Source: Solitalea longa
GTDB taxonomy: Bacteria > Bacteroidota > Bacteroidia > Sphingobacteriales > Sphingobacteriaceae
DNA: 64,000 bases
Reading direction: 5' to 3'
Assembly: GCF_002920915.1 (NCBI RefSeq)
Contig: NZ_PQVF01000017.1
Span: 280-64,279, forward strand
Made by a program: the position numbers and the translations under genes. This document shows, one piece after another, positions 35,824-43,824 of this stretch; position 1 is the first letter of the stretch, and each line of letters opens with the position of its first letter. Under the pieces are notes generated by a model. It was not told the DNA's origin, did not search any database, and worked only from the letters and a program-made list of their open reading frames with translations.

Positions 35824-36345
35824 ATGGAAAATAAACTGATCAATCCTCGCTTTGCGGTGATAACCTTATTGATAATCGCTGCTGCCATAACTCGCTTTTT
35901 GCCACATCCTCCTAATTTTACAGCCATTGGTTCATTGGCATTATTTGGGGGGGCCATGTACACAGACAAACGCCTGGCCATCATTGTGCCTATCGCAGCT
36001 ATGTTTATCAGCGACTTGTTTATTCCGTATGGCTTCTTGCCTTCTGTTTACTTCAGCTTTGCAGGAATAGTGCTTATCGGGTTTATGCTGCGTAATAAAG
36101 TTGGCTTTACCAATGTAGCAGCTGCTACTCTTGCTTCAGCAGTTTTGTTCTTTGTAGTGAGCAATTTCTTTACCTGGTACAGTGGAACAATGTATCCTCA
36201 TAATGGCGCAGGTTTAATGGCTTGTTATACTGCGGCAATTCCTTTCTTTTGGAATATGTTAGCAGGAACAGCATTTTTTAATGCAGTTTTCTTTGGAGGT
36301 TTTTATTTATTAGAAAAGAAATTCCCTGCTTTAGCTATAAAATAA
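35824..36345 (+). CDS. DUF6580 family membrane protein (copy 1)
   Basis: A 173-residue protein with about five membrane helices. The signature PPNFTAIGSLALFGGAMY in the first helices and FFTWYSGTMYPHNGAGLMACY before the last helix is shared with the gene directly after btuB in this window. The size and helix count resemble S-components of ECF vitamin transporters (inference only). A strong two-way terminator separates it from the sirtuin at the tail of the B12 operon. Confidence 0.75.
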   Translation: MENKLINPRFAVITLLIIAAAITRFLPHPPNFTAIGSLALFGGAMYTDKRLAIIVPIAAMFISDLFIPYGFLPSVYFSFAGIVLIGFMLRNKVGFTNVAAATLASAVLFFVVSNFFTWYSGTMYPHNGAGLMACYTAAIPFFWNMLAGTAFFNAVFFGGFYLLEKKFPALAIK

Positions 36346-36366
36346 ATCACCATTATCAAATGATAT

Positions 36367-36402
36367 AAAAAAAGACCAACATGTGGATGTTGGTCTTTTT
36401 TA
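36367..36402. terminator. Two-way terminator between DUF6580 and sirtuin genes
   Basis: Perfect stem AAAAAAGACCAACAT / ATGTTGGTCTTTTTT with loop GTGG, between convergent genes; closes the B12 operon on the minus strand. Confidence 0.88.
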
Positions 36403-36415
36403 CTTTAGAGGGCGA

Positions 36416-37102
36416 TCAGGCAAATTGTTCGATAAGTAGCTGGGCCAGTTTAGGCACTCCTGTTCCGGCTTTTTCTTGTATCACCTGTACATTTCTGGAA
36501 ACGTAAGGAGCATTGGGATCTACTAAGAACTTTGGCGCATCATATTGAACAAAGTCCATTAAACCGGCAGCCGGATATACCTGCAATGATGTTCCAACTA
36601 CAGCAAAAAGATCAGCCTTTGAGCATATTTTGGCGGCAGGTTCGAACATTGGTACAGCCTCTCCAAACCACACCACATGCGGACGCAACTGCGAACCTTT
36701 CTCACATTTTTCGCCCATTCTTATTTCATAGCCTTCAATATCATAAACCAGATTGGGATCAACACTGCTTTGTGATTTGGTAATAACACCATGCAAATGA
36801 ATTACAGAAGTTGAACCTGCCTTTTCGTGCAGGTTATCAATATTTTGGGTAATAATGGTAACGTCAAAATACTTTTCCAGGGCAGCTAAGCTTATGTGAC
36901 CGGCATTGGGTTCGGCCTCAACCACCGCTTTACGACGCATATTATAAAACTCTTGCACCAGTTCAGGATTTCTTCTCCAACCTTCGGGGGTGGCTACCTC
37001 GTTAATATCATAACCTTCCCATAATCCATCGCTATCCCGAAAGGTTTTCAATCCACTTTCTGCACTTATACCTGCTCCCGTTAAAATTATCAGCTTTTTC
37101 AT
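36416..37102 (-). CDS. Sirtuin-type NAD-dependent protein deacylase
   Basis: A 228-residue class III sirtuin. Seen motifs: GAGISAESGLKTFR (NAD binding), TQNIDNLHEKAG, the catalytic His in HLHG, and LRPHVVWFGEAVP. The usual zinc ribbon of four cysteines is lost: only one cysteine (GEKCEKGSQ) is left where two CxxC pairs are expected, so this is a zinc-poor sirtuin. It starts 3 bp after cobC stops and is the last gene of the B12 operon. In Salmonella the sirtuin CobB was found because it can partly replace CobT, so the placement is meaningful. Confidence 0.9.
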   Translation of the reverse strand: MKKLIILTGAGISAESGLKTFRDSDGLWEGYDINEVATPEGWRRNPELVQEFYNMRRKAVVEAEPNAGHISLAALEKYFDVTIITQNIDNLHEKAGSTSVIHLHGVITKSQSSVDPNLVYDIEGYEIRMGEKCEKGSQLRPHVVWFGEAVPMFEPAAKICSKADLFAVVGTSLQVYPAAGLMDFVQYDAPKFLVDPNAPYVSRNVQVIQEKAGTGVPKLAQLLIEQFA

Positions 37103-37105
37103 TAT

Positions 37106-37672
37106 TTAAAACTTATGATTAATGAACTCAACGCTCCAATACCCCTTATTGTATTTTAATTTAGAAACTGAACTATAGTCAATGGCTAATTTGAACGCAT
37201 TAATTAACGGAATTTGTAATACTTCGCACAAAATACTCCTGATCACGCCAGCGTGACTTATAATCACAACGTTTTCCGCTTCGAATTCATTAGTCATCTC
37301 CTCCATAAATGTAGCTACTCTTTGGTGCAGTTGATCAAAACTCTCTCCACCCGAAGCCTGAACATTCACAAAATCTTCCATCCAAAGATCAAGCTCTTCC
37401 TTATCAATTTCTGTCCATGCTTTCAGTTCCCAATTACCGAAATCCATTTCCTTTAAATAATCATCAAAATAAACTTCATCGGCTAACGATTCAGCCAGCA
37501 AGGCACATCTTTTCAAAGGGCTTGAATAAACAACTTTTTGTTTAGGTAGAAAACCTATCAAATGCTCAATCGTGGCATTTAACAGATTGGCATTTACATC
37601 TACATCACTTTGTCCATAACAAATACCCTTATCGGTTTCAACTTCCGAATGACGGATTAAATAGATGTCCAT
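37106..37672 (-). CDS. cobC: Alpha-ribazole phosphatase, histidine phosphatase family
   Basis: A 188-residue histidine phosphatase. The phosphate-accepting histidine is in LIRHSEVETDKG, and the second histidine in VVIISHAGVIRSI. The start ATG at 37672 is chosen because the conserved fold begins at once (MDIYLIRHSE) and the longer frame reads back into cobS. It overlaps cobS by 16 bp, which suggests coupled translation. Position after cobS supports a role in removing phosphate from alpha-ribazole phosphate or adenosylcobalamin phosphate. Confidence 0.88.
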   Translation of the reverse strand: MDIYLIRHSEVETDKGICYGQSDVDVNANLLNATIEHLIGFLPKQKVVYSSPLKRCALLAESLADEVYFDDYLKEMDFGNWELKAWTEIDKEELDLWMEDFVNVQASGGESFDQLHQRVATFMEEMTNEFEAENVVIISHAGVIRSILCEVLQIPLINAFKLAIDYSSVSKLKYNKGYWSVEFINHKF

Positions 37673-38505
37673 AGTGTTGATCCGAAAAAAAGATAAATAA
37701 ATACTTCTGCCAATTGCTGGGTGGTTCCCAAGCAATCACCGGTATATCCGTCAATCCATTTCTGAAAATATCGCCCCAGGAAATACTGAAGTAAAATAAG
37801 CGGAACAATAACCAGTAAGTACAGCCATTCATTTTGCCACCAGCAGAATACCAATAAGGGTAACAATCCCCAAAACAAGGCCAATAAAAGGCTTCGCAGT
37901 GGCAACTTTATAGCAACAGGTTTCGCTTTTGAATCTTCATTTTCACGAGAATATTCATGCGTATAGATAAACGACAATGCCGTTGCCCTGCTTAAGGAAT
38001 GCGCAACAATGATTACAAAAGGAATTATTAATGGATTGATCGCATTTAAACTGAAAAACTTAACCGCTAACATCAGGATGATTCCAATAACGCCATAAGC
38101 ACCTACCCTACTATCCTTCATAATTTCGAGGATTCGTTGCTTAGTCCAACCTCCTCCAAAACCATCACATACATCCGCAAAACCATCTTCATGAAAAGCT
38201 CCGGTCAATAAAATTCCGCTAACCATACTTAAAAGAATAGATAAAGTAGCTGGAAAAAGAAATATTGAGAGCCAGAACACCAATGCGCACACACCCCCAA
38301 CCATCCAGCCGACAATCGGTAAGTAAACTGTAGCGCGATTTAAATATTCTGCCCGATGATCTACCCATTTAGGGCAAGGAATTCGGGTGTAAAACATTAT
38401 CGCAGTAAAGAATAAATTAAGTTGAAGGCCTCCTGGCCTCCTAAGCAAGGAGCTGGTATGGTGCAAATTTGACTGTTCTGGTATGGAATGCTGTGTTTCT
38501 TGCAT
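37657..38505 (-). CDS. cobS: Adenosylcobinamide-GDP ribazoletransferase (cobalamin synthase)
   Basis: CobS joins adenosylcobinamide-GDP and alpha-ribazole in the inner membrane, the last step of B12 assembly. Seen: LFFTAIMFYTRIPCP at the start of the conserved part, the metal-binding FHEDGFADVCDGFGGG, and SRVGAYGVIGIIL. At 282 residues it has about 28 extra N-terminal residues; these are encoded across a GC-rich palindrome (38438-38452), so the true start could be later, for example at a TTG in that region. Overlaps cobC by 16 bp. Confidence 0.9.
   Translation of the reverse strand: MQETQHSIPEQSNLHHTSSLLRRPGGLQLNLFFTAIMFYTRIPCPKWVDHRAEYLNRATVYLPIVGWMVGGVCALVFWLSIFLFPATLSILLSMVSGILLTGAFHEDGFADVCDGFGGGWTKQRILEIMKDSRVGAYGVIGIILMLAVKFFSLNAINPLIIPFVIIVAHSLSRATALSFIYTHEYSRENEDSKAKPVAIKLPLRSLLLALFWGLLPLLVFCWWQNEWLYLLVIVPLILLQYFLGRYFQKWIDGYTGDCLGTTQQLAEVFIYLFFGSTLWTSI
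38424..38457. repeat. REP-like GC-rich palindrome inside cobS 5' end
   Basis: CTCCT-AAGCA-AGGAG hairpin with flanking CCTCCTGG, unlike the AT-rich surroundings. It resembles the CCTCC...GGAGG palindromes common between genes in Bacteroidota. Confidence 0.5.
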
Positions 38506-38633
38506 GTTAAAAGTATTACCCTGAATTCCATAAATGGAAATTTGAAACTGTTGCTAAAAATTAACCACTGAGTTGCAAACAATGAAAAAGCGCTGATTTA
38601 ACATAAAGCACTCCCAAATCTCCCTTTAGGGGG
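38506..38633. other. cobT-cobS spacer with second GC-rich palindrome
   Basis: 128 bp gap inside an otherwise tight operon. At 38619-38652 TCCCTTTAGGGGG and a nearby TACCCCC form a second REP-like element reaching into the end of cobT. TACTTTTA on the minus strand just above 38505 could be a weak internal -7 box for cobS. Confidence 0.45.
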
Positions 38634-39665
38634 CTAATGGGAACTTACCCCCGCACTTTCAAATGAAGCCATTTCATTCATAAAATTAACCGCCGACTGA
38701 ATAATCGGATAAGCCAATGCCACTCCTGATCCTTCGCCAAGACGCATATTTAACTTTAAAATGGCTTTTGCATTTAAATATTCAAGCATTCCTTTGTGGC
38801 CGTTTTCATCGCCCTGATGACAAAAAATACAATAATCAATAACTGCTGGATGGATGGCCTGCGCAATCAGCAAAGCCGAAGTGGTAATAAAACCATCTAC
38901 CAGAAGGATCATTTTATTTGCAGCAGCCTGTAGTATGGCCCCAACCATTTGAGCAATTTCAAAACCTCCAAAGGTGTTTAATATTTCTATTGGAGAATTG
39001 GCAACATGTTTGGCAAGCGCATTTTGCAACACTTGCGTTTTCGATGCAAGCTGTTCATCATCCAATCCAGTGCCTTTGCCAACACAGTTTAACAGAGGCA
39101 AACCCGTTATTTTATGCATTATTACCGAAGCTGAAGATGTATTGGCAATACCCATTTCTCCGAAACCGATAACATTACAACCTTTTGCGGCAATTTGATT
39201 TACTAAATCTGCTCCTTTTTGAATAGCTAATTCAGCGTCAGCAATGCTCATAGCAGGTTCAATAGCAAAATTGCGGGTTCCCTGAGCGATCTTTTGGTTA
39301 ATTACCAAAGGAACATCGACAAAATCTCCTTTTACACCAGCATCAACAATATTAAGTTCGATGCCATGCTGACGCGAAAACACGTTTATTGCTGCACCGC
39401 CATAAACAAAGTTAAGCACCATTTGATAGGTAACTTCCTGTGGATATTTGCTTACACCTGACTCAGCAATACCATGATCAGCAGCAAAAACAATTATGTT
39501 CGGATTGCGTAATGCCGGTTCAAGTGTTTGTTGAATCAAACACAGCTTTTCAGCCAGCTTTTCCAAATCACCTAAAGCTCCAAGAGGTTTGGTCTTAAAA
39601 TCAATTTTATGTTGGATATCGTCCAATGTCGATTGATCTGGTCGTTCTATATTAAATGCTATCAT
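38634..39665 (-). CDS. cobT: Nicotinate-nucleotide-dimethylbenzimidazole phosphoribosyltransferase
   Basis: CobT makes alpha-ribazole phosphate, activating the lower ligand base of cobalamin. The 343-residue length is usual. Seen: KPLGALGDLEKLA near the N-terminus, ADHGIAESGVSKYPQEVT, FGEMGIANTSSAS, and RLGEGSGVALAYP with the general-base glutamate, then ASFESAGVS at the end. It follows the PP-loop gene with no gap. Confidence 0.96.
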   Translation of the reverse strand: MIAFNIERPDQSTLDDIQHKIDFKTKPLGALGDLEKLAEKLCLIQQTLEPALRNPNIIVFAADHGIAESGVSKYPQEVTYQMVLNFVYGGAAINVFSRQHGIELNIVDAGVKGDFVDVPLVINQKIAQGTRNFAIEPAMSIADAELAIQKGADLVNQIAAKGCNVIGFGEMGIANTSSASVIMHKITGLPLLNCVGKGTGLDDEQLASKTQVLQNALAKHVANSPIEILNTFGGFEIAQMVGAILQAAANKMILLVDGFITTSALLIAQAIHPAVIDYCIFCHQGDENGHKGMLEYLNAKAILKLNMRLGEGSGVALAYPIIQSAVNFMNEMASFESAGVSSH

Positions 39666-40379
39666 CTATTTATCATTAGAAATTAAGTCGGTGAACCAGA
39701 AACCCTGTTCTTTTTCTGTCGCATCTGTTTTAAAACTATAGGGTTTAAAAACCGTTTCACCTAGTTCAAATTCAATAGCCTTTGAAAACAAAGGACCATC
39801 AAAACAAAAACTATGAAACTCTCCGTTTTCTCCGCATGGATCAACATTTTTGGGAAGAGCAGCTATGAATTCCGTAGTAATTATTTTTCCGCAGAACTCT
39901 CTATCCAATATTTCTGACTTAACGCAGCATACAACCGATAGAAATCCGAGGTTCATAAATTTAGCAACTAAAGCAGCAGTATCCTGTTTCCATAATGGAA
40001 AATAGCCATTTAAACCTGCCTTATTGAGTAAGTTTTCCCGGTAAAGTTTCAGATCCTCTAAAAAGATATCACCATAAACAATTGTAGTTATACCTTCATT
40101 TTTTAAGTCGATAAACACCTTATTTAAGGCGTTTTCATAATCTTCATTGGTACAAGAGGCAGGAACATACATTTTCTTTAATGGCATACCAATGCGTTGG
40201 GCCTGCCAATCAAGCAATTCCTCCCTTACCCCGTGCATTGAAATTCTTTTGAATTCTTCGTTTACAGTAGTAATAAGACAACATACTTCAAACTGATCAG
40301 ACTGATTTAAAAGATCATACAATGCAAAAGCGGAATCTTTTCCTCCGCTCCAAAACAGGGCTGTTTTAATTCGTTCCAT
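39666..40379 (-). CDS. Dph6-like PP-loop ATPase in the B12 operon
   Basis: A 237-residue protein of the adenine-nucleotide alpha-hydrolase group related to diphthine-ammonia ligase. The ATP pyrophosphatase loop is WSGGKDSAFALYDLL; other conserved parts are ISMHGVREELLDWQA and YGDIFLEDLKLYRENL. Bacteria have no diphthamide, so the family name does not give its job. It is placed between cobU and cobT with zero bases on either side, so a step in corrinoid metabolism (an ATP-dependent amidation or adenylation) is likely, but unproven. Confidence 0.82.
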   Translation of the reverse strand: MERIKTALFWSGGKDSAFALYDLLNQSDQFEVCCLITTVNEEFKRISMHGVREELLDWQAQRIGMPLKKMYVPASCTNEDYENALNKVFIDLKNEGITTIVYGDIFLEDLKLYRENLLNKAGLNGYFPLWKQDTAALVAKFMNLGFLSVVCCVKSEILDREFCGKIITTEFIAALPKNVDPCGENGEFHSFCFDGPLFSKAIEFELGETVFKPYSFKTDATEKEQGFWFTDLISNDK

Positions 40380-40889
40380 TTAAAACCCTTTAACTGTCAT
40401 CGGAATTCCTGAAACCATAAAAACTACTTTGCATGCTTTTGAAGCAGTATATTGGTTAGCGAGGCCCTGCAAATCGGTAAATTTGCGTCCAATGGCCGTA
40501 TCTGCATGAACGCCCATACCTATCTCGTTGGAAACCAAAATAAAGGTTCCGGAAATTTGTTCCAGCTTATCGATTTCAGCTTTAAAAAGTGCTAAGCTGA
40601 CTTCAATATCCTGATCGTGATCCATGAAAAAATTGGTAAGCCATAAGGTCAGGCAATCAACTACCACCACTTTATTTTCAATTGGGAGTAAGCTTACACG
40701 GTGGGTTTCTTCAAAGTTTTCCCATTCAGGACCGCGATCTGACTGGTGACGCTCAACCCGTTCTCTAAAATCATCGTCCCAAATTTTTGCCGTAGCAACA
40801 TAAACAGGATTGGCGCTTAAGCTTTTGGCCAAATTGTGAGCATATCGGCTTTTGCCCGACTTTACTCCTCCGGAAACAAAAATGATCAT
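40380..40889 (-). CDS. cobU: Adenosylcobinamide kinase / guanylyltransferase
   Basis: A 169-residue CobU/CobP enzyme that phosphorylates adenosylcobinamide and adds GMP. The P-loop GGVKSGKS lies at 7-14; the guanylated-histidine region is seen as ERHQSDRGPEWENFEE; VVDCLTLWLTNFF is the Walker B type strand. Directly followed by the PP-loop gene without spacing. With CobT, CobS and CobC it completes nucleotide-loop assembly. The lack of cbiB or a corrinoid adenosyltransferase here means adenosylcobinamide must be supplied by genes elsewhere. Confidence 0.95.
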   Translation of the reverse strand: MIIFVSGGVKSGKSRYAHNLAKSLSANPVYVATAKIWDDDFRERVERHQSDRGPEWENFEETHRVSLLPIENKVVVVDCLTLWLTNFFMDHDQDIEVSLALFKAEIDKLEQISGTFILVSNEIGMGVHADTAIGRKFTDLQGLANQYTASKACKVVFMVSGIPMTVKGF

Positions 40890-40903
40890 GGGTTATAAAG
40901 AAA

Positions 40904-40964
40904 CAACCACAGCCAACACATGTTGCGCAGCTAATTTTGCGAAACCCTGTGTTGACTGTGGTTG
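40904..40964 (-). promoter_or_regulatory. Long hairpin between DUF6580 and cobU
   Basis: 17-base arms CAACCACAGCCAACACA (40904-40920) and TGTGTTGACTGTGGTTG (40948-40964) pair with a single mismatch around a 27-base loop. There is no T-run after it on the minus strand, so it looks like an mRNA processing or stability element rather than a terminator. Confidence 0.6.
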
Positions 40965-40997
40965 ATTAATAGTTTTTATTAAAAATCATTGAAATTT

Positions 40998-41546
40998 TTA
41001 GGCTTTGGCCAAAACAGGAAAACGGTATTTCAACAATTCAAATCCTCCGAACAATAATCCACAGTAAATTAAATCAGATAGAATTGCGCTGTTTAAATAC
41101 GGAAGCCCGGCAATGTAGCATGCTGTTAACCCGCCGGCATTCATTGGATAGATCATACCACCAGCCCAAACGCCAAAGTTAGAGATGATGAAGAATAACA
41201 ATGCCGAAGTAATCGCCATGCCGCCAACTGTTGCCACTTTAGGCTTCTTAATAATTACCGAAGCTAAAACAACCATTAAAATATAAGAGCCATATTGCCA
41301 GTAAAAACCATCGTAAAACGGAACAATTTTATGATAAAACTGAAGGTTTACGATTTGGTCACTGATCCACACCGCTAATAATGGGCATAAAAATGCCAGC
41401 CATTTACGCCCAAAATAAGCACCGCTAAAAATTGCGATCGCATCAATTGGAGAATAGCCATGTACCGGAAATAAATAAATTCGGGTAAGTAGAGCCAAAG
41501 CAATAAAGCTTAGCACAGCAAAAACACGTGGTTTATTATTCATCAT
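40998..41546 (-). CDS. DUF6580 family membrane protein (copy 2), after btuB
   Basis: A 182-residue protein with about five membrane helices, paralogous to the protein at 35824. Shared features: PIDAIAIFSGAYFG in the first third and SNFGVWAGGMIYPMNAGGLTACY before the last helices. It starts 20 bp after btuB, under the B12 riboswitch. This supports the idea that it carries the corrinoid (or cobalt) across the inner membrane after BtuB, since no btuCD genes are present here. MMNN gives two adjacent ATGs. Confidence 0.8.
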   Translation of the reverse strand: MMNNKPRVFAVLSFIALALLTRIYLFPVHGYSPIDAIAIFSGAYFGRKWLAFLCPLLAVWISDQIVNLQFYHKIVPFYDGFYWQYGSYILMVVLASVIIKKPKVATVGGMAITSALLFFIISNFGVWAGGMIYPMNAGGLTACYIAGLPYLNSAILSDLIYCGLLFGGFELLKYRFPVLAKA

Positions 41547-41566
41547 CTATTTTTGATTTATGTAGG

Positions 41567-43486
41567 TTATAAACTAAAACTTAAACCAACGTTTGTGTTA
41601 AAACCACGGCTGTTATAACCGGTAGTTTCAACATAATTTTCATTGGTAATATTCTTTAAATCAGCAAACAATTTAAGCTTTTTCAGCAACTTGTACTCGG
41701 CGTAGGCATCTAGCAGGAAATATTTATTCAAGGTTAGATTTACTGATTGAAAGGTGTTAGGATCATAGAACGGATCAACACGTTTTCCAACCAGTTTTAA
41801 ATTGGCAGAAACAAAAAAGTTCTCACTCAATTTATACCCGGCATTAAAACCAAACGTATTACGCGGGCGGCGGTACAAATTATTGAAGGTTGCATTTTGA
41901 GTGGTTACCTCTCCATAAACCAAGGAGTAAAAACCTGTTAATGTCAAGTCCTTGGCCGGTATAACCTCAGCTTCCAACTCCATTCCTTCATCATTTTGCT
42001 TATTATAATTTACATATTTTGAGGTGAAGGCAATCACATCCCTTCCCTTACGTTTAAAGGCACTCAATGCCAGCTTTGCTTGCCCATCAAAAAACACGGT
42101 TTGAAACCCGGCTTCATAGGTATTTATTTTTTCTGGTTTTAGATTGATATCTCCATAAATTGAATACAATTGATACAAGGATGGAGCTTTAAAGGCTGAG
42201 GAAATATTAACGAAAACCTTGGTGTTTTCATCAACCAAATACGATGGGTTGATGGTATACGTAAAGTTATTTCCGTAGATAGAATGACGATTGAATCGAC
42301 CACCCAATTCAAAATTAAACCCATGTAAATTATTTAAGAAAACCGAAGCATAAAGGCTCGCAATTGAATTCTTAGCTGAATCGGGGTTTAGGTGAGCTAT
42401 TGAAGTATAATTCCAAGACGTATTGATGTATTTACTTTCCTGTTCGGTATTCGAAAACCGATAACTTGTTCCGGCTAATAGCTCTACATGATCTGCAATA
42501 GAAAATTTACCATACAATTCAGCATTGTGCAGGTTGCCCTTCGTGTCGTTTAGATTATATTCTACCTTATCAGCAATGGTATCATTTAAGAAATACCTTT
42601 TTACATTATTATAGCTATAGTTAAAAAACCAATCGGCTTTTGACCGTTTCCAATTCGTGGCAAACCCGGTAGCTAATTCAGAAGATTTACCATCGTAATC
42701 CTTATCATCTGTAAACGCGCCGAAATCAAGCATCATCTTCGTTTCGCTGTAGCGCACAAAGGGCCTGATAGAAAGATCAGAAATAGGTGACCATCCAAGA
42801 TTAAGATTTGCCCCTTTTAAACGAAAGTTATCATTTTCAAAAGCGTTGGTAACCTCAGCTGGTTTTTGAGCTGATGAAAACCCTTTTGAACTTTCATTGG
42901 CTAAGGCCAGGTTATAATCAACTTGTTTAAAGCGACCGTTTACACCCAGACTTTGTTTATAGGTCTTATATGTTCCTGCGGTAACCAGGGCATTTAAGCC
43001 AAAGGCTTTCTCTCCCCCTTTTTTGGTAATGATATTAATTACTCCTGCAACGGCATCTGAACCGTAAAGCGTTGAGTGCCCGCCACGAAGAATCTCAATA
43101 CGATCAACCATGGCTAAATTGATAAGGTTTAAATCATAATTGTTTGAAGTTTCCGAAGGATCACTTACCGGAATACCGTCAATTAAAATCAATACATAAC
43201 CACTTGGTGCGCCACGCAAAAAGGTCGAAATATTGGTTCCACGGTTAGAGTTAGCTCCATTTAGATTTAAGGCGGATTGAATATTGAGCAGGTCGTTGAT
43301 GTTTTTACCACCGCTGCGCTCAATTTCTTCACGAGTGATGACTGAAACCACTTTTCCGGTTTCCGAAGATTTTTTGTCGAATTTGGTGGCGGTAACAGAA
43401 ACTTCATTAAGATCAAGTTTCTTTTCTTGTCCAAAGGCAAACAGCGAAACAGCTGTTAGGACAGTAAGAGTAAATAGTTTTTTCAA
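41567..43486 (-). CDS. btuB: TonB-dependent vitamin B12 receptor BtuB
   Basis: A 639-residue outer-membrane receptor. The signal peptide ends at FAFGQ (about 20), the TonB box region is LDLNEVSVTATKFDKK, the plug domain holds IDGIPVSDPSE and RIEILRGGHSTLYGSDAVAGVINIITK, and a beta-barrel of about 22 strands follows, ending in ..GLSFSL. BtuB-type identity rests on size, plug motifs and the riboswitch and cob genes around it; the barrel alone would not distinguish it from other small TonB receptors. Confidence 0.9.
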   Translation of the reverse strand: MKKLFTLTVLTAVSLFAFGQEKKLDLNEVSVTATKFDKKSSETGKVVSVITREEIERSGGKNINDLLNIQSALNLNGANSNRGTNISTFLRGAPSGYVLILIDGIPVSDPSETSNNYDLNLINLAMVDRIEILRGGHSTLYGSDAVAGVINIITKKGGEKAFGLNALVTAGTYKTYKQSLGVNGRFKQVDYNLALANESSKGFSSAQKPAEVTNAFENDNFRLKGANLNLGWSPISDLSIRPFVRYSETKMMLDFGAFTDDKDYDGKSSELATGFATNWKRSKADWFFNYSYNNVKRYFLNDTIADKVEYNLNDTKGNLHNAELYGKFSIADHVELLAGTSYRFSNTEQESKYINTSWNYTSIAHLNPDSAKNSIASLYASVFLNNLHGFNFELGGRFNRHSIYGNNFTYTINPSYLVDENTKVFVNISSAFKAPSLYQLYSIYGDINLKPEKINTYEAGFQTVFFDGQAKLALSAFKRKGRDVIAFTSKYVNYNKQNDEGMELEAEVIPAKDLTLTGFYSLVYGEVTTQNATFNNLYRRPRNTFGFNAGYKLSENFFVSANLKLVGKRVDPFYDPNTFQSVNLTLNKYFLLDAYAEYKLLKKLKLFADLKNITNENYVETTGYNSRGFNTNVGLSFSL

Positions 43487-43601
43487 TTTTGATAGTTTAT
43501 GAGTTTAAAAAAGCCCATAACCAACAAGGAAAGTAATGAAAATACGCTAGCAGTATTTACATTCCAGCTTTGGTCCCCGAAAGCTATGAATAAGTTATCA
43601 T

Positions 43602-43788
43602 GCCTTGGCAGGTCTTCTGACTTACTCATTTTCATCCGGAGCCTTCCCGTCATATACAGACAGTGGCGTGAGAGTGCCGGATAAGCCTGATCATTGATTG
43701 ATCAGGCCGAGCTTACAGCAGCGGGCCTGTTCAGGATTTTCACCTGATTCCCTTTTAACCCCATTAAAAACTATAATGGAGACCAAAG
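43602..43788 (-). ncRNA. Cobalamin riboswitch upstream of btuB
   Basis: On the minus strand the conserved parts appear in order: closing stem CTTTGG (43783-43788) with CCAAGG (43603-43608), GGGAATCAGGTGAAAATCCTG, the CCCGC..CTGTAA core, a peripheral hairpin GCCTGATCA/TGATCAGGC (43685-43707), GCCACTG, GGGAAGG, and the B12 box AGTCAGAAGACCTGCC (43607-43622). B12 binding would lower expression of btuB and probably the operon. About 115 bases separate it from the start codon. Confidence 0.95.
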
Positions 43789-43793
43789 CGCCG

Positions 43794-43824
43794 CAAATGT
43801 AATACTTGATTAAATAAATACAAA
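43794..43824 (-). promoter_or_regulatory. Promoter of the btuB-cob operon
   Basis: TTTG (43821-43824), a 19-base gap and TACATTTG (43794-43801), an exact match to the Bacteroidota consensus. Transcription should begin near 43787, at the base of the riboswitch. Confidence 0.8.

Follow-up and report, generated by a model that had tools for sequence, protein, structure and literature searches.

DUF6580, a family of small membrane proteins found beside cobalamin riboswitches, as a candidate corrinoid importer of Bacteroidota

We analyzed a 64,000-nucleotide stretch of the Solitalea longa genome (NCBI RefSeq assembly GCF_002920915.1, contig NZ_PQVF01000017.1, positions 280 to 64,279), here called the window, with a focus on two genes for membrane proteins of the family DUF6580 (PF20221). 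One of them, DUF6580-b (P0002), belongs to a minus-strand operon that runs, in order, cobalamin riboswitch, btuB-like receptor gene, DUF6580-b, cobU, a gene for a Diphthami_syn_2-type ATPase, cobT, cobS, cobC, and a Sir2 gene; the other, DUF6580-a (P0001), is a second copy close by. In our judgment DUF6580-b is probably a solitary importer of corrinoids, resembling the S-components of energy-coupling factor (ECF) transporters, which carries out the inner-membrane step of uptake in place of BtuCDF. This reading is built on the observed placement, the riboswitch, the enrichment of the family near such riboswitches, its near-replacement of the permease family FecCD and the lack of an EcfT match, together with a predicted fold; from these we infer binding, transport, its direction, and its energy source.

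The family is common in the phylum of the window, where 154 of 395 genomes have a match (153 above the cut-off), and it was matched in none of 14 control genomes. We examined 100 stretches of about 7.3 kb around DUF6580 genes, drawn from 93 genomes in 83 genera of the phylum and each reaching 4.4 kb upstream and 2.4 kb downstream (less at contig ends). The cobalamin riboswitch RF00174 (Rfam) is present in 42 of the 100, or in 38 of 93 once seven extra stretches are set aside, and a linked locus is found in 37 of the 83 genera and 14 of 26 families. The number expected by chance, from the riboswitch density in 40 genomes (52 above cut-off in 151 Mb), is 0.25 per 100 stretches; because placement is not truly random and the loci are related, only the size of the excess counts. 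All 47 riboswitches in these stretches share the strand of DUF6580, and the excess and this strand agreement together rule out chance placement. The initial annotation had proposed DUF6580 as a candidate corrinoid transporter, and the enrichment, with the predicted fold described below, supports that proposal, chiefly for the copy linked to btuB, transport itself being the part that we infer; neither of the two outcomes that the annotation had named as refuting was seen.

DUF6580 is the first gene after the riboswitch in eight loci (L084, L087, L110, L116, L135, L136, L145, and L154), at a distance of 27-136 nt measured to the stop-to-stop frame. Five of these eight (L110, L116, L135, L145, and L154) have another cobalamin riboswitch after DUF6580, and this second riboswitch precedes a BtuB-like receptor in four of them. 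Shared among the linked loci are TonB receptors, Peripla_BP_2 proteins, the ATPase, Sir2, and a cluster whose representative is a DUF5074/YNCE beta-propeller; BtuG is presumably a YncE-like propeller as well. The Diphthami_syn_2-type ATPase recurs in 10 of the 100 loci (nine of them riboswitch-linked) and the Sir2 deacylase in eight (seven linked). Outside the phylum, a metagenome-assembled genome of Leptospiraceae has a weak cobalamin riboswitch (L009:8601-8735; 34.4 bits, cut-off 31.5) on the same strand about 1.3 kb before its DUF6580 gene, so the linkage may extend beyond Bacteroidota.

Relatives of the BtuF-like family Peripla_BP_2 occur in seven of the 100 loci, six of them riboswitch-linked (L069:5069-6034, L073, L087, L098, L106, and L165). 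A periplasmic BtuF-like partner for DUF6580 was considered and dropped, as the six linked proteins have no signal peptide evident by eye. These proteins, whose genes stand beside DUF6580 in B12 operons, mostly of FecCD-free genomes, may be cytoplasmic corrinoid-binding proteins. Similarly, S. longa has a leaderless-looking protein of this kind far from the window (L170:1435-2238).

Across the 395 genomes, DUF6580 and BtuC-type permeases (FecCD, PF01032) nearly stand in for each other. We counted FecCD as present at E below 1e-30 and genomes with weak matches only (E above 1e-15) as lacking it, which gives strong matches in 259 genomes and weak ones alone in 27 more. On this count 23 genomes have both families, 130 DUF6580 only, 236 FecCD only, and six neither, with one genome whose DUF6580 match falls below the cut-off (G062) entered as lacking DUF6580. 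The same table by genus (171 genera) reads 16, 72, 83, and 0. If weak matches are counted as FecCD, 23 and 130 become 48 and 105. Five families (f1, f2, f15, f24, and f36) contain both kinds of genome. A riboswitch lies within 8 kb of FecCD in five of 18 genomes lacking DUF6580 vs none of 22 bearing it, a pattern that is suggestive only, with the 8-kb limit set after seeing the data, the counting done by hand, and one riboswitch at 11.8 kb in G108. The ECF component CbiQ/EcfT (PF02361) is absent from 144 of the 153 DUF6580 genomes and present in nine.

The S. longa genome itself encodes four B12-binding domains above cut-off, which indicates that B12 is used, and the riboswitch in the window is its single cobalamin riboswitch. 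A profile search with PF02361 found no CbiQ/EcfT in it, although a very divergent module would escape such a search. The initial annotation correctly saw no btuCD genes in the window, and neither DUF6580 protein matches FecCD, but the genome does have one FecCD permease, on a different contig, in an operon that also encodes a binding protein, an ATPase, and a TonB receptor. The ATPase passes a heme-transporter model (NF010068, 280.3 vs a cut-off of 261 bits), the permease passes none (best BtuC, 256.7 vs 334 bits), and neither does the binding protein. This lone operon is probably of the heme type, a reading that we do not hold firmly.

DUF6580 genes are also found on viral contigs in IMG/VR, where they adjoin a gene for a TonB receptor; in four of four receptors tested, TIGR01779 (TonB-B12) is the best NCBIfam model, with a score below its cut-off. 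In our survey (80 of 86 loci kept), DUF6580 and a receptor lie on one strand within 600 nt in 37 of the 80 loci, the receptor lying after DUF6580 in 25 and ahead of it in 12, with the stop-to-stop frames overlapping in 35; the 37 represent about 22 distinct DUF6580 proteins at 90%. A relative of a phage hallmark lies in the stretch in 14 of the 37, so that a phage origin is not established for all. Among 10 proteins scanned, L043 has a terminase (E 2.8e-127), a single-strand DNA-binding protein, UvsX, a helicase, a virion protein, and a head-closure protein; five proteins scanned in L063 include a head maturation protease and a DNA ligase, and the five scanned in L065 contain no clear phage hallmark. 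Two viral-contig DUF6580 proteins have no relatives among INPHARED phages, and a viral-contig receptor has 12 matches there, several in records that resemble bacterial DNA.

Some of these contigs carry a riboswitch of their own. The adenosylcobalamin (AdoCbl) riboswitch AdoCbl-II (RF01689) was found in L042, L043, L059, and L063 and not in L064, L065, L066, or L068. A search model built from four of these riboswitches (E below 1e-10) matches 19 of the 80 loci, 17 times directly before DUF6580 and twice between DUF6580 and the receptor; the 19 include training contigs (L042, L177, L178, and L244), several near copies, and three loci without a receptor in the stretch (L194, L223, and L253). An excerpt of Weinberg et al. 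2010 (PMC2864571) lists the AdoCbl variant as Marine. The result is a compact cassette of AdoCbl-II riboswitch, DUF6580, and BtuB-like receptor (L043:9821-12381, also L042, L059, L063, and many of L177-L253), some examples of which are clearly from T4-like phage. We are evenly divided on the broadest claim, namely that DUF6580 is a widespread ATPase-free family of corrinoid importers which replaces BtuCDF in much of Bacteroidota, and that T4-like marine phages carry a DUF6580-BtuB cassette under their own AdoCbl-II riboswitch that secures B12 for the host. If that is true, it would give phages, equipped with a B12 receptor, carrier, and riboswitch of their own, an unexpected hold on the cofactor supply of the host.

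The viral pairs bear on whether DUF6580 acts alone. It could instead be an S-component that needs an energising partner, either a divergent ECF module or a shared ATPase of the ATP-binding cassette (ABC) type. Nearly all characterised S-components use an ECF module, nine of the 153 DUF6580 genomes have CbiQ, and PF02361 would miss a module that is too divergent. We nevertheless find such a dependence unlikely, given the lack of a CbiQ match in S. longa and in most DUF6580 genomes, the phage contigs that pair DUF6580 with BtuB alone, and the precedent of BtuM, which, according to excerpts of PMC6072759, works in an Escherichia coli lacking btuC and btuF and needs no ECF module, E. coli having none.

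Solitary import by DUF6580-b also agrees with the predicted fold. AlphaFold models built from a 30-row alignment reach a predicted local distance difference test score of 91.6 for DUF6580-b and 92.0 for DUF6580-a, and both have six membrane segments, rather than the five or so of the initial annotation. Both models find their best structural matches among S-components, whose size that annotation had noted, BtuM standing in first or second place. The matches were ranked with VIA-align 2, which re-ranks Foldseek's own list, rows at most 1 apart counting as tied. For DUF6580-b, the first 22 rows all belong to S-components or CbiM/NikM-type chains, with Z down to 8.4 (we take 4m58 and 4m5b to be NikM), and the next row stands at 6.7. 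The top rows are BtuM 8c7p (Z 14.1, root-mean-square deviation [rmsd] 3.7, 170 aligned) and BtuM 8ovv (14.0, 3.6, 167); 4huq_S, which we take to come from an S-component complex, reaches Z 12.8 (rmsd 3.1, 155 aligned). For DUF6580-a the top rows are 4huq_S (Z 13.5, rmsd 3.0, 156 aligned) and BtuM (13.4, 3.4, 160), so that BtuM is not singled out, the two being tied; S-components continue through row 20, followed by MreD at 9.2 and a row at 6.6. Searched against PDB sequences (E up to 10), the DUF6580 profile has one match, 6fnp_A from the ECF-CbrT entry (E 0.013), which is marginal and spans only about the first half; no BtuM chain was matched in this search, in which no BtuM profile was compared. 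NCBI presumably names such proteins a putative transport family.

The mean number of lysines plus arginines is 1.4-2.9 for the termini, loop 2, and loop 4, compared with 0.0-0.4 for loops 1, 3, and 5, which places the latter three loops on the periplasmic side. Judged from helix ends only, the residues conserved in at least 85% of 102 sequences lie toward that side at R22, 30, 36, D63, Y85, N123, W127, Y133, G139, and P149, and elsewhere at P55, 95, F166, and G167; D63, Y85, N123, and W127 are numbered as in DUF6580-b. An invariant cobalt-binding cysteine as in BtuM was hinted at by the 30 aligned sequences and is ruled out by the 102, in which no cysteine column reaches 85%; the best, column 143 at the start of helix 6, has Cys in 73 and Ser in 20.

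A carrier of this fold in such an operon might import a building block of B12 instead, for example dimethylbenzimidazole, alpha-ribazole, or, as CbiM does, cobalt, for use by CobT, CobS, and CobC. CblT is an S-component predicted for the first two of these. The operon does contain cobT, cobS, and cobC, CbiM-type S-components are among the structural matches of DUF6580-b (Z 9.4-9.7), and the placement is compatible with any B12-related substrate. We consider this decidedly unlikely, as it leaves unexplained both the near-replacement of FecCD and the viral DUF6580-BtuB pairs, and B12-binding proteins match better, BtuM in fold and CbrT in sequence. Less probable still, indeed very improbable, is that DUF6580 is a corrinoid receptor or accessory while another, unrecognised protein does the transport. 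The S-component fold is also found in receptors, according to excerpts of PMC11109136, and in MreD, but DUF6580 is small and stand-alone with no signalling domain, it replaces FecCD, and the clusters scanned from the linked loci showed no further membrane protein that recurs.

It is important to set out what weighs against a corrinoid importer that replaces BtuCDF. As many as 58 of the 100 stretches have no riboswitch, and their recurrent neighbors, YceI, MutS, and methylpurine glycosylase among them, show no B12 theme; RF00174 was found in 373 of the 395 genomes, and five of 20 listed riboswitch-negative genomes carry DUF6580. The 23 genomes with both families break the exclusion, the lineages are not independent, so that ancestry inflates any test of it, and FecCD covers heme and siderophore permeases, so that its presence is not proof of a B12 permease. 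On the structural side, a plain Foldseek search, made for DUF6580-b only, puts S-components including BtuM on top with weak E values (0.07 and up), Z values of 13-14 are possible for helical bundles generally, and the fold is shared by the nontransporter and the receptors just mentioned. In addition, BtuM needs its invariant Cys80, a cobalt ligand in loop 3 with no counterpart in DUF6580, and excerpts of PMC5997447 state that CbrT fails without its ECF module, unlike the solitary action proposed here.

The features of the operon are collected in Table 1. The initial annotation had one DUF6580 gene 20 bp after btuB under a cobalamin riboswitch and a paralogue just past the terminator of the operon, and both placements stand (the gap is 41547-41566). 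It also had the two genes at the ends of the operon, which suits DUF6580-a, just past the end, but not DUF6580-b, the second gene. The PF20221 scores are 191 bits (DUF6580-a) and 162.8 bits (DUF6580-b) against a curated cut-off of 27, and a profile search of the genome found no further copies. The region has nine terminator-like hairpins vs 7.9 in shuffles, and the one in Table 1 is the longest. The listed TTG start of cobC overlaps cobS, and the true start may be an internal ATG. Among named relatives Solitalea agri is the closest, its protein being 81% identical to DUF6580-b, and it has the same order of riboswitch, btuB, DUF6580, and cob genes. A direct homologue search with P0002 gave five matches in genome contigs, where it reaches close relatives only, and none in plasmids.

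Table 1. The B12 operon of the window and the neighboring second DUF6580 gene
Feature	Position	Strand	Evidence
Cobalamin riboswitch RF00174	43590-43802	-	Rfam 107.4 bits, E 6.5e-26
btuB-like TonB-dependent receptor	41567-43486	-	Best NCBIfam TIGR01779 TonB-B12, 232 bits, below cut-off 599.7; Pfam Plug and barrel
DUF6580-b (P0002), 182 aa, proposed inner-membrane corrinoid importer	40998-41546	-	Pfam PF20221 E 1e-47; predicted S-component fold
cobU	40380-40889	-	PF02283 E 2.5e-51
Diphthami_syn_2-type ATPase	39666-40379	-	PF01902 E 3.5e-40
cobT	38634-39665	-	TIGR03160, above cut-off
cobS	37657-38505	-	TIGR00317 and NF001277, above cut-offs
cobC	37106-37735	-	TIGR03162, above cut-off
Sir2-family deacylase, final gene of the operon	36416-37102	-	PF02146 E 1.4e-42
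Terminator-like hairpin between convergent Sir2 and DUF6580-a	36368-36401	-	15 pairs, loop 4, T-rich tail
DUF6580-a (P0001), 173 aa, second copy, convergent with Sir2	35824-36345	+	PF20221 E 2.2e-56; predicted S-component fold

The two copies need not do the same work. On a tree of the 102 proteins the riboswitch-linked label needs 13 changes vs 33 in shuffles, and in all seven genomes from which both copies were fetched exactly one is linked, as in the window. DUF6580-a falls among unlinked rows of the tree, of which several are second copies, and in S. agri (L005) no DUF6580 stands in its place, between Sir2 and an 80-aa open reading frame. That only linked copies such as DUF6580-b handle corrinoids, and unlinked ones such as DUF6580-a carry something else, is a serious possibility, toward which we lean somewhat less than not. 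The row nearest to DUF6580-a speaks against it: L072 (support 98/78) is the only DUF6580 of its genome (G122), has Sir2, the ATPase, and btuB as neighbors in the same convergent arrangement, and comes from a genome without FecCD. L072 is among the 58 unlinked stretches and is linked outside the part fetched, with its riboswitch further along (C88:47270-47456). We regard DUF6580-a as probably another carrier with the fold of DUF6580-b, one whose substrate may be a related compound, and a corrinoid role is less certain for it than for DUF6580-b.

For the copy in the operon, the proposed sequence of events is as follows. BtuB would deliver a corrinoid (cobalamin or cobinamide) to the periplasm, and DUF6580-b would bind it on the periplasmic side and, in the manner supposed for BtuM, move it into the cell with no help from an ECF module. 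Net uptake would probably be driven by trapping in the cytoplasm, here through CobU, CobT, CobS, and CobC and through binding to enzymes. DUF6580 would occupy the place of BtuCDF in most genomes that carry it, and the step across the inner membrane that is missing in S. longa and many relatives is most likely the work of DUF6580-b.

We found no paper on the DUF6580 family in the open-licence PMC literature, where the string PF20221 occurs only in papers unrelated by title. Excerpts of PMC6072759 note that many B12-dependent Gram-negative bacteria have BtuB and no BtuCDF, and the inner-membrane step is therefore open there. DUF6580 offers a concrete candidate for it in 153 of the 395 sampled genomes and, if it is an importer, alters predictions of which bacteria take up B12. 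Excerpts of PMC11109136 describe as unclear the mechanism by which a solitary S-component-like carrier moves its substrate, and a large family without the cysteine of BtuM would help to tell the general features of such carriers from the special ones.

Among known systems, BtuM of Thiobacillus denitrificans (PDB 8c7p and 8ovv; PMC6072759) is like DUF6580 in predicted fold and in occurring without an ECF module. The two are 11-12% identical in structural alignment; BtuM is found in proteobacteria and DUF6580 in Bacteroidota and on phage contigs. Because the defining cysteine of BtuM is missing, we do not assign DUF6580 to BtuM, and cysteine chemistry of the BtuM type is not expected from its sequences. 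CbrT of Lactobacillus delbrueckii (PDB 6fnp), described in the available parts of PMC5997447 as the S-component of ECF-CbrT, is a B12 S-component and the sole PDB match of the DUF6580 profile. Other ECF S-components (folate, biotin, riboflavin, thiamin, and CbiM/NikM) have the same predicted fold (Z 8.4-13.5) and carry other substrates, whereas the genome of DUF6580-b has no EcfT match. BtuCDF would perform the same step, and its permease family, FecCD, turns up in genomes that lack DUF6580; it is an ABC importer of several subunits that is driven by ATP and includes a periplasmic binding protein, whereas DUF6580 is a single small protein. If the proposal is true, BtuB and DUF6580 would be among the smallest complete two-membrane systems for B12 import.

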